64,000 nt of DNA from Serinicoccus sediminis (GTDB lineage Bacteria; Actinomycetota; Actinomycetes; Actinomycetales; Dermatophilaceae), in NCBI RefSeq assembly GCF_004153545.1, contig NZ_SDVA01000010.1, positions 1-64,000 on the forward strand, written 5' to 3'. Below the pieces are notes generated by a model. The model did no database searches. It saw nothing but the letters and a program-made list of their open reading frames with translations, and was not told the origin of the DNA. Of this stretch, positions 16,575-18,726 are shown piece after piece. Position 1 is the stretch's first letter. Every line of letters starts with the position of its first letter. The translations under genes were made by a program, and so were the position numbers.

Positions 16575-16676
16575 CCGATCGTCCCGCCCTCGATCCGTGC
16601 CTCAGGGTGGCACGGCATCCCGCCCGCGGCAGGTCGACGCGGCCCGCTCCGGTGCCGGACGTCGCCCGTCGACCCG

Positions 16677-16682
16677 TAGACT
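16677..16682 (+). promoter_or_regulatory. -10 element of the aspS leader
   Basis: TAGACT, identical to the elements before pyrG, efp and metK. Transcription would begin near 16689, three bases before the first paired base of the T-box stem I, which supports both calls. No good -35 is visible. Confidence 0.65.
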
Positions 16683-16691
16683 GGTCCCGTT

Positions 16692-16929
16692 CCCGGGGCG
16701 GAGTGACGACCCGCCGGGGTGGACGAGGACCGAGGCGCAGGCATACCTCGCGACCGTGACACCCGCCCGGGGCCGCGCGTCCGGCGAGACCGACGAGAGG
16801 CCGAGGTCCCCTCGGCGAAGGTGTGGTGGCACCGCGACCTGGCCCCCGCCCACACCTCCCGGGCTGCCTTGGCGGGCCGGGTCGTCGCATCGACAGATCC
16901 TCCGGCGCGCCGCACCGAGAGGAGAGATC
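16692..16929 (+). ncRNA. T-box riboswitch (Asp specifier) in the aspS leader
   Basis: Stem I: CCC(16692-16694) and GGGCGG(16696-16701) pair with CCGCCC(16763-16768) and GGG(16769-16771), leaving an AGTGA / GACAC internal loop whose specifier is GAC (16758-16760), an Asp codon followed by A. A short arm CGAGG/CCTCG (16731-16750) caps it. A hairpin GCCGAGG-TCC-CCTCGGC (16800-16816) resembles stem III. The T-box core has GGTGTGG (16820-16826) paired with CCACACC (16850-16856), GCG (16834-16836) paired with CGC (16847-16849), and a 7-base bulge TGGCACC (16827-16833). TGGC complements GCCA, the 3' end of tRNA-Asp with discriminator G. Downstream, GATCCTCC (16896-16903) can sequester the SD in GGAGAGATC (16921-16929), and there is no terminator, so control is probably translational. 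Stem I is short, as in actinobacterial ileS T-boxes. Confidence 0.88.
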
Positions 16930-18726
16930 ATGCTTCGCACCCACGAGTCGGGCACCCTGCGGCCCGAGCACGTCGGCCAGACCGTCACCCTCACCGGCTG
17001 GGTGGCCCGACGCCGCGACCACGGCGGCGTCGCCTTCATCGACCTGAGGGACGCCAGCGGCGTCGTCCAGGTCGTCGCGCGTGACGAGGTGCTGACCGGC
17101 ACCGCGCACGACCTGCGCAGCGAGTACTGCGTCAAGGTCGTCGGTGAGGTCACCGCCCGTGCCGAGAAGGACGTCAACCCCGAGCTGCCGACCGGGGGCA
17201 TCGACGTCGTCGCCACGGAGATCGAGGTGCTCAGCGCCTCGGCGCCGTTGCCCTTCCAGATCGACGAGCGGGTCAGCGTCGGCGAGGAGGCGCGGCTGCG
17301 CCACCGCTACCTCGACCTCCGCCGGCCCGGTGCCGGCGCGGCGGGTCAGAACCTGCGCCTGCGCTCGAAGGTCAACGCCGCCGCCCGCACCGTGCTCGCC
17401 GAGCGCGACTTCGTCGAGGTCGAGACGCCGACCCTGACGCGGTCGACCCCGGAGGGCGCCCGCGACTTCCTCGTGCCGGCGCGCCTGCAGCCGGGCAGCT
17501 GGTACGCCCTGCCGCAGAGCCCGCAGCTGTTCAAGCAGCTGCTCATGGTGGCCGGCATGGAGCGCTACTACCAGATCGCCCGGTGCTACCGGGACGAGGA
17601 CTTCCGGGCCGACCGGCAGCCGGAGTTCACCCAGCTCGACATCGAGATGAGCTTCGTCGAGCAGGACGACGTCATCGAGCTCGGCGAGGCCGTCGCGGCC
17701 GCCGTGTGGCGGACCATCGGGGTCGAGCTCACGACGCCCTTCCCGCGGATGACGTATGCCGAGGCCATGCGGCGCTACGGGTCGGACAAGCCGGACCTGC
17801 GGTTCGGGGTCGAGCTCGTCGAGTGCACCGACTACTTCGCGGAGACACCGTTCCGGGTGTTCCAGGCCGAGTACGTCGGGGCGGTCGTCATGCCCGGCGG
17901 GGGCAGCCAGCCGCGACGCCAGTTCGACGCGTGGCAGGAGTGGGCCAAGCAGCGGGGCGCCAAGGGCCTTGCCTACGTCACCGTGGGCGAGGACGGCACG
18001 CTGGGCGGACCGGTGGCCAAGAACCTCACGGACGCCGAGCGGGACGGGCTCGCCGCCCACGTGGGTGCCGAGCCCGGGGACTGCGTCTTCTTCGCCGCCG
18101 GCGCCACCAAGGCCTCCCGTGCCCTGCTGGGCGCGGCGCGCCAGGAGATCGCCGAGCGGGTCGGGCTGGTGGACGAGGACGCGTGGAGCTTCCTCTGGGT
18201 CGTCGACGCGCCGCTGTTCGAGCCGGCCGGCGACGCCGTCGCCGCGGGGGACGTGGCCGTCGGCGCCGGGGCCTGGACCGCGGTGCACCACGCCTTCACC
18301 TCGCCCAAGGCGGAGTTCCTCGACTCCCTGGAGGAGGACCCGGGCGCCGCGCTGGCCTACGCCTACGACCTGGTGTGCAACGGCAACGAGATCGGGGGCG
18401 GGTCCATCCGTATCCACCGCCGCGACGTGCAGGAGCGCGTCTTCGCCATCATGGGGCTCTCCCCGGAGCAGGCGCAGGAGAAGTTCGGGTTCCTCCTGGA
18501 GGCGTTCAAGTTCGGCGCCCCGCCGCACGGTGGGATCGCCTTCGGCTGGGACCGCATCGTCGCGCTGCTCGCCGGCACGGACTCCATCCGCGACGTCATC
18601 GCCTTCCCCAAGTCGGGGGGTGGCTTCGACCCGCTGACCGCCGCACCGGCGCCCATCACGCCGGAGCAGCGCAAGGAGGCGGGTGTGGACGCCGAGCCGG
18701 AGCCGGAGCAGCCCGAGACCGCCTGA
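16930..18726 (+). CDS. aspS: Aspartate--tRNA ligase
   Basis: Class II aminoacyl-tRNA synthetase, 598 residues. N-terminal OB-fold anticodon-binding domain ([20 protein letters not shown]), motif 2 around [20 protein letters not shown], the bacterial GAD insert domain (about 310-420) and motif 3 [19 protein letters not shown] 16930 is set by GAGAGGAG at 16918-16924 and by the OB-fold start; the longer open frame runs through the leader RNA. Whether it also charges tRNA-Asn (non-discriminating) cannot be decided here. Preceded by a T-box that should raise translation when tRNA-Asp is uncharged. The C-terminal tail is acidic and overlaps a tandem repeat. Confidence 0.98.

Follow-up and report, generated by a model that had tools for sequence, protein, structure and literature searches.

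T-boxes that control AspRS genes are known from Firmicutes, where they are long-Stem-I transcriptional elements; Saad 2012 and Saad 2013 reportedly deal with them. An aspS T-box of C. acetobutylicum is recorded in the accessible part of Wels 2008 (PMC2494555). According to the excerpted text of PMC10482949, T-box binding is augmented by the IDTM in a long Stem I, by the S-turn of Stem II, or by both, and four classes are distinguished. Class III is the short actinobacterial ileS type, in which an apical loop of 5-6 nt presents the specifier and Stem II is required. In the available portions of PMC1262725 and PMC7583486, actinobacterial T-boxes are described on ileS; the former gives candidate T-boxes before ileS and states that other amino acid pathways were examined without conserved upstream structures. 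For the TBDB, reference genomes of Actinobacteria were searched with a class II model of its own (PMC7778990, in excerpt), and some of the leaders treated below may already be catalogued there. An extra AspRS is known in Actinomycetales (PMC4206432, in excerpt). No aspS T-box in Actinobacteria is described in the accessible portions of PMC7583486, PMC7778990, PMC2494555, PMC10651847, PMC1262725, PMC10482949, PMC4206432, and PMC7927825, a statement that covers these papers.

The window, a 64,000-nt stretch of the Serinicoccus sediminis genome (3.55 Mb), carries a bacterial-type aspS at 16930-18726 of the forward strand, the strand on which all features below are located. It encodes an aspartate--tRNA ligase of 598 aa (NCBIfam NF001750, 840 bits; cut-off 443), which is 97% identical to the AspRS of two uncultured Serinicoccus isolates (L001 and L002). 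From the predicted transcript start, at about 16689, to the ATG the leader measures 241 nt (16689-16929). This leader very probably holds a tRNA-Asp-specific T-box of a stripped-down type with an ultrashort Stem I, which would control aspS. It is identified as a T-box because the bulge, the helices flanking it, the specifier, the match to the acceptor end, and Stem III are all found. The first-pass annotation had proposed just such an element, an Asp-specifier T-box with a very short Stem I on an actinobacterial aspS, and this reading is borne out by conservation, covariation, the fit of specifier and acceptor end, and AspRS neighbours at 44 of 54 loci inspected. The -10-like hexamer TAGACT that it had placed before Stem I is read directly at 16677-16682, and by eye similar hexamers occur a few bases upstream of the first helix in many leaders of the genus. 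A strict sigma-70 scan of 16600-16960 returned no full promoter. At the very start of the window, positions 1-77 hold the 3' portion of a 5S rRNA (RF00001, 45 bits), the only match of Rfam at gathering scores in the whole window.

Two alignments describe the leader. A2 is a MAFFT alignment of 25 leaders from the genus of the window and covers the specifier hairpin, spacer, IIA, purine linker, Stem III, and antisequestrator. A3 unites 59 leaders, aligned by fitting them to a covariance model, R1, which was built on the genus leaders. The leader opens with a closing helix, P1, whose 5' strand (16689-16696) pairs with 16766-16773; in the window its register is imperfect (CCCGGG/CCCGGG core). P1 closes the specifier hairpin, extends as far as the IIA hairpin, and shows double changes in 7/7 pairs of A3. 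The specifier hairpin, or ultrashort Stem I (16697-16715), consists of GGCGG, a 9-nt loop AGTGACGAC, and CCGCC, giving 5 bp. Its cells are paired at 96.8% in A2 and 97.8% in A3, with changes of C-G to U-A and A-U. A variable spacer follows (16716-16765), which in some relatives forms a plain hairpin in the Stem II position without the S-turn signature. The IIA hairpin, CCG-CGCGTC-CGG (16773-16784), has 98.7% of its cells paired in A2 and 94.0% in A3, with double changes in 3/3 pairs of A3. Its loop bases CGTC (16778-16781) could pair with GACG (16792-16795) as a IIB-like pseudoknot, which we mention as an idea only; this candidate pairing is invariant apart from four genus leaders in which it is weakened, and so gives no covariation. 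The purine-rich linker GACGAGAGG (16792-16800) precedes Stem III and lends its last G as the first base of that stem; upstream of Stem III, CGACGAGAG is invariant in 25/25 genus leaders of A2. P1, the IIA hairpin, and the invariant CGACGAGAG had gone unmentioned in the first-pass annotation.

The stem III-like hairpin that had been announced is present at 16800-16816, with 7 bp and the loop TCC. A crude strand permutation gave 18/2000 for Stem III in the genus, 685/2000 in other genera (not significant), and 43/2000 in the short leaders of the distant AspRS group described below (aspS2). Despite this weak permutation result Stem III is retained because 5/7 of its pairs show double changes in A3. 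The same permutation for Stem I gave 86/2000, 14/2000, and 0/2000 in the three sets. One aspS T-box of another genus (L164; G128 C3:469379-469512) departs from the rest in the CGCGCGU IIA module and the GACGAGAGG linker, both otherwise conserved (here CGACGCGACCGGGCACGAAAGG), and has an intact specifier hairpin, Stem III, and antisequestrator.

The antisequestrator (16819-16857) has all of its cells paired (100%) across the 59 leaders. Helix A1 joins AGGTGTGG (16819-16826) to CCACACCT (16850-16857), and helix A2 joins GCG (16834-16836) to CGC (16847-16849). The bulge between the two, TGGCACC (16827-16833), and the 3-bp helix are as first drawn; the outer helix has 8 bp instead of the 7 assigned to it. 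The bulge reads TGGCACA in a few aspS2 leaders. Being near-invariant, the antisequestrator contributes little covariation of its own. Its motif GGTGGCACCGCG occurs once in the window with up to one mismatch, where 3.66 occurrences are expected. The bare 12-mer GGTGGNACCGCG, tried as a probe of family genomes, was rejected as uninformative and not rare at such base composition: it is present in 59/59 family genomes, and the genome of the window has 13 copies against 20 for the reversed control. The motif is therefore taken as significant because of its conserved position at aspS and the compensatory changes in the helices, not because of the 12-mer alone.

The specifier is the Asp codon GAC (16705-16707), at the centre of the apical loop AGTGACGAC in the context U-GAC-R. 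A GAC codon followed by A in an internal loop of Stem I had been proposed; the conserved GAC lies in the apical loop and is followed by G. The site N-N-U-GAC-R-N-N is found in 60/60 short-type leaders (25 of the genus, 18 from other aspS genes, and 17 from aspS2), where sites were picked by TGACR and the best flanking stem, a stem of only 2 bp in two leaders. When GAC alone, centred in any hairpin, is searched for, the search lands on the same site in 54/60. The sole GACA between P1 and Stem III lies at 16758-16761; it was rejected as a conserved specifier, its context GTGACACCCG being present in only 4/25 genus leaders. The inner G-A and A-C positions of the 9-nt loop could stack on the stem and leave a pentaloop, much as in class III. 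The host tRNA-Asp has the anticodon GTC (GUC) and the discriminator G, and its CCA is not encoded (one tRNA-Asp gene, from ARAGORN on 30 of 45 tRNA matches). The complementarity of TGGC to the GCCA 3' end of tRNA-Asp, claimed from the start, is thereby supported, and codon and acceptor end both fit. Note that the discriminator of tRNA-Asn is also G, so that UGGC cannot separate tRNA-Asp from tRNA-Asn. Acceptor complementarity agrees with Asp and is no proof of it; discrimination would fall to the specifier.

The 31 genomes of the genus provide 30 aspS loci, and in 25 of these GGTGGCACCGCG is found at -91 to -113 of aspS. The five aspS genes without the motif (L136-L140) have the start codon GTG. 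Among 80 named aspS loci, of which four had less than 500 nt of upstream sequence, GGTGGCACCGCG occurs within 500 nt upstream in six (L001-L006, all Serinicoccus or Ornithinimicrobium); the antisequestrator motif is missing from the 500-nt upstream regions of the other 74. In A2, 94.9% of cells pair, compared with 39.5-48.5% when the 3' partners are slid. Double-change cells in A2 number 26 against 10.1 in shuffles (0/500), pairs with double changes are barely above shuffles (7 against 4.5; 20/500), and further pair types show no excess (18 against 18.0). In A3, 18/33 pairs have double changes, with 185 such cells against 49.6 in shuffles (0/500). Since the genus set served for the first drawing of the structure, the genus statistics lean its way; the set from other genera, whose loci were not used to find P1, is the fairer one for that helix. 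There, in 16 of 18 loci, the own strands of P1 pair on average at -12.67 kcal/mol and mismatched strands at -8.08 kcal/mol (sd 0.69), none of 2000 permutations being as low; in 8/16 no other strand is as good a partner as the own one. L150 and L164 had been dropped by the extraction rule, and L117 is retained with a mis-extracted 3' strand. Covariation in the aspS leaders of relatives, and the GAC and TGGC elements in close relatives (25/30 genus loci for the motif), had been named among the points on which the proposal would turn, and both are found. Comparison among the leaders brings out the RNA elements, their conservation and covariation, and their complementarity to codon and acceptor end.

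Model R1 was searched, with stricter filters, against 149 family and 297 order genomes, two sets that overlap. At E<=0.1 it matches 51 of the family genomes and 28 of the order genomes. Of the 54 R1 loci inspected, bacterial aspS follows 24 (six of these belong to the genus), a distant AspRS follows 20, and 10 have neither downstream; R1 thus contributed 18 aspS leaders from outside the genus and 20 leaders of the distant AspRS. At 44 of 54 loci, therefore, a bacterial or distant AspRS follows, and the other 10 are weak (E >0.003). These weak matches (L184-L192 and L194) are taken as chance with the exception of L187. This locus (G432 C1:531837-531885 and flanks; E 0.014) shows by eye a TGACG hairpin-like stretch, an IIA-like hairpin, GACGAGAGG, and a Stem III-like hairpin, with no UGGNACC bulge nearby and a downstream frame that is not AspRS, which suggests a decayed T-box or an orphan RNA. 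Twenty-three R1 matches (22 + 1) were given no locus in the search that found them; that of G015 came in as L182, those of G021 and G039 are tied to an AspRS relative by coordinates, and the rest lie outside the 54 inspected. In a phylum sample, a model R2 matches 5/396 genomes at E<=0.01, two of them (G571 and G603) with a different T-box. The short element is rare in the sampled phylum. The T-boxes of G603 and G571 (L227 and L228; R2 E 7.9e-4 and 9e-3), genomes of another family of the phylum, have the bulge UGGCACC and by eye precede a trpE-like gene.

A search with the Rfam T-box models had been suggested as a check on the proposal, and it went against it. RF00230 (gathering 93 bits) has no match at E<=10 on 16600-16980 or on five related leaders (L111, L133, L171, L175, and L176), and nothing at E<=0.001 in the genome of the window. 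Judged by its elements, the aspS leader is a genuine T-box variant outside Rfam recognition. With RF00230 (Rfam 15) and class I it shares the bulge UGGNACC with its A1 and A2 helices, Stem III, and the codon-anticodon logic; unlike them, the aspS leader lacks a long Stem I with IDTM and the S-turn signature of Stem II, and is not matched at E<=10. By inspection the IDTM is absent, Stem I being too short for it as a 5-bp hairpin with a 9-nt loop. The S-turn strand (AGUA/GUAGAR, between Stem I and the antisequestrator) is found in 0/43 aspS leaders and in 1/17 short aspS2 leaders, the latter without the GAA strand. It is found in 15/21 ileS control T-boxes, in 14 with the GAA strand before it. 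The test is one of sequence signature, not of structure, and detects only 1/5 long-Stem-I aspS2 leaders, where its absence is not interpreted. The control consists of 21 of 30 RF00230 loci, after exclusion of seven partial model matches and two aspS2 loci; each of the 21 is related to the L229 frame, which has ileS as its top-scoring family (559 bits; cut-off 621; frame cut by the locus). The distance from specifier hairpin to antisequestrator, with Stem III counted in, is as small as 43-44 nt in five leaders (L167-L170 and L182); in our view a Stem II domain does not fit into this space.

The closest described relative is the class III translational ileS T-box, e.g., that of Nocardia farcinica, as presented in the accessible text of PMC10482949. 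Both have a short Stem I without IDTM, a specifier in the apical loop, Stem III, a UGGN antisequestrator, and an actinobacterial aminoacyl-tRNA synthetase gene as the target. They differ in specificity, Asp here (GAC, UGGC) and Ile there (AUC; UGGU in the fetched ileS loci). The apical loop is 9 nt here (5 if the inner non-standard pairs form) and 5-6 nt in class III; in addition, the aspS leader has no S-turn signature, and its P1 spans from the specifier hairpin to the IIA hairpin. By the S-turn test, then, the aspS leader is apparently not a full class III T-box. Class II, glyQS, resembles it in having no S-turn Stem II domain, but keeps a long, IDTM-bearing Stem I and is glycine-specific according to the same excerpt (PMC10482949), and the aspS leader has neither property. 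In the fetched loci, two very short ileS T-boxes (L246 and L254) have AUC in the apical loop CCG-UCAUCAG-CGG, at the same central place that GAC has in the aspS form, and their Stem II carries the signature GAA...AGUAGAA. The T-boxes of Firmicutes aspS likewise control an AspRS gene; the present ones, by contrast, are ultrashort, belong to Actinomycetota, and stand before either aspS of the bacterial type or aspS2, an additional gene of archaeal type. It is possible, and close to an even call, that the leaders form a fifth T-box class without IDTM and Stem II S-turn, in which a codon-centred loop, serving as a counter-anticodon in a kissing complex, and a grip on the acceptor end would suffice to hold the tRNA, and whose module would have been exchanged between housekeeping aspS and archaeal-type AspRS. 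Relative to the excerpted literature, which has actinobacterial T-boxes on ileS, the finding extends them to tRNA-Asp and aspS and points to a T-box group invisible to the standard Rfam model. If tRNA binding is true, these leaders test the published rule of IDTM, Stem II S-turn, or both, and they offer very small T-boxes for structure work and for the engineering of tRNA sensors.

In the proposed mechanism, the GAC of the apical loop would pair with the GUC anticodon of tRNA-Asp. Uncharged tRNA-Asp would then pair through its GCCA 3' end with UGGC of the bulge and stabilise the antisequestrator, while charged tRNA-Asp would be unable to pair with the bulge. The antisequestrator would in turn raise expression of aspS, most likely because the ribosome-binding site becomes accessible. 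Binding of the tRNA, discrimination by charging, and the direction of regulation are predictions.

How the signal would be passed on is best approached from the sister leaders. When aspS2 leaders are folded with the antisequestrator forced, the Shine-Dalgarno (SD) is more unpaired in 18/18 (mean 0.34) than with the 5' strand blocked (0.04), and where folds were drawn out, CACCTCC of the 3' strand is instead paired to the SD (GGAGGTG or GGAGGA). Such behaviour in the folding models is what a translational T-box would show. For aspS itself the signal is fainter. Sequestration of the aspS SD by GATCCTCC had been suggested, and the folding model does predict an SD hairpin (16896-16924; GATCCTCC at 16896-16903 with GAGGAG at 16919-16924) in both states; the hairpin is uncoupled from the antisequestrator, with an SD accessibility of 0.17/0.17/0.17 when the antisequestrator is free, forced, or blocked, and the particular SD mechanism first suggested is unsupported. 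The minimum-energy fold of the isolated platform contains a candidate anti-antisequestrator helix (16834-16845 with 16874-16885). The platform reaches -61.4 kcal free and -56.3 kcal with the antisequestrator forced, a bistable platform with a gap of about 5 kcal. Only 8/43 aspS leaders have a gap of more than 1 kcal between the free and forced folds. Across the 43 the mean unpaired SD rises from 0.30 to 0.375, in the expected direction in 29/43, a weak effect. In 30/43 the isolated platform takes the antisequestrator form at minimum energy even unforced, and such a default fold is, in these models, not what an off-by-default switch needs. RNAalifold on the stretch from antisequestrator to start in 32 of the 43 aspS leaders gives the antisequestrator alone, with no consensus hairpin after it, and for this reason no consensus expression platform is claimed.

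Three other readings of the leader deserve consideration. The nearest keeps the tRNA-Asp T-box and changes its output to early termination of transcription, either Rho-dependent or intrinsic but lacking a U-run, in place of SD sequestration. The weak SD coupling across aspS leaders speaks for it, as does a GC-rich GGGCUGCC...GGYRGCC hairpin seen by eye between antisequestrator and SD in many leaders. The hairpin does not emerge as a consensus in the 32 leaders given to RNAalifold, the sister aspS2 leaders sequester the SD in folding models, and no terminator-like site with a T-run is found in 16600-16960, as the first-pass annotation had also said. Termination is thus unlikely, though the most serious of the three, and the folding models make a translational output rather probable. 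The earlier step from a missing terminator to translational control gains from the 18/18 sister leaders, and for aspS itself it is still indirect reasoning.

The other two readings deny a T-box altogether. Some synthetases are known to autoregulate by binding tRNA-like leaders, and a conserved leader bound by a ligand other than tRNA, e.g., by AspRS itself through tRNA mimicry, would explain why the tRNA-reinforcing modules of known T-boxes are not found. It would not explain the 7-nt bulge UGGCACC between A1 and A2, which is the signature of a T-box antiterminator, nor a specifier kept as a codon in a loop, nor the related long-form T-boxes that have the same Asp codon and precede archaeal-type AspRS genes; we consider it very improbable. 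That the leader is an ordinary one with chance G+C-rich pairings is suggested by the 12-mer, which alone is not rare at this base composition, and by the missing Rfam match. Conservation with compensatory change across genera and families, together with the AspRS neighbours at 44 of the 54 inspected loci, makes this hardly credible.

A tRNA-Asp T-box, the preferred reading, also stands before a second kind of synthetase gene. The 20 distant AspRS relatives preceded by R1 loci, the aspS2 group, have 30-34% identity, and the two that were typed score above the cut-off of the archaeal-type enzyme, aspartate--tRNA(Asn) ligase. By eye, T-boxes whose Stem I is long and whose specifier reads GAAGAC precede archaeal-type AspRS genes at five loci (L165, L166, L226, L236, and L257); the genes at L226 and L257 are typed as aspartate--tRNA(Asn) ligase, and L226, L236, and L257 match RF00230 below its cut-off. 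These long-form T-boxes appear to link the short form to recognised T-boxes. Bacterial aspS is present in 20/20 genomes checked. In 15 of them the T-box stands before the aspS2-type gene, and in none of these 15 did a motif check of 400 nt upstream find one on bacterial aspS; two loose regular-expression matches there (GGTGGGACC at -344 and GGGGAACC at -49) were not counted. The other five have it on bacterial aspS (G000 and G099) or on neither AspRS (G053, G007, and G068). The likely history is one in which a tRNA-Asp T-box became shorter and was transferred between housekeeping aspS and the extra AspRS gene. A T-box on the housekeeping AspRS in some genomes, and on an extra AspRS beside a copy without T-box in others, would allow the rewiring of synthetase regulation to be compared in natural settings. 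One genome (G283) has two short T-box copies, L181 and L193 (C1:42445-42569 and 404192-404316), each before a distant AspRS relative; downstream of the second, L193, the AspRS match has an in-frame TAG. At another locus (L258; G874 C19), which encodes a distant AspRS relative of 32% identity, a partial RF00230 match (model positions 7-103) is probably a further long-Stem-I aspS2 T-box.
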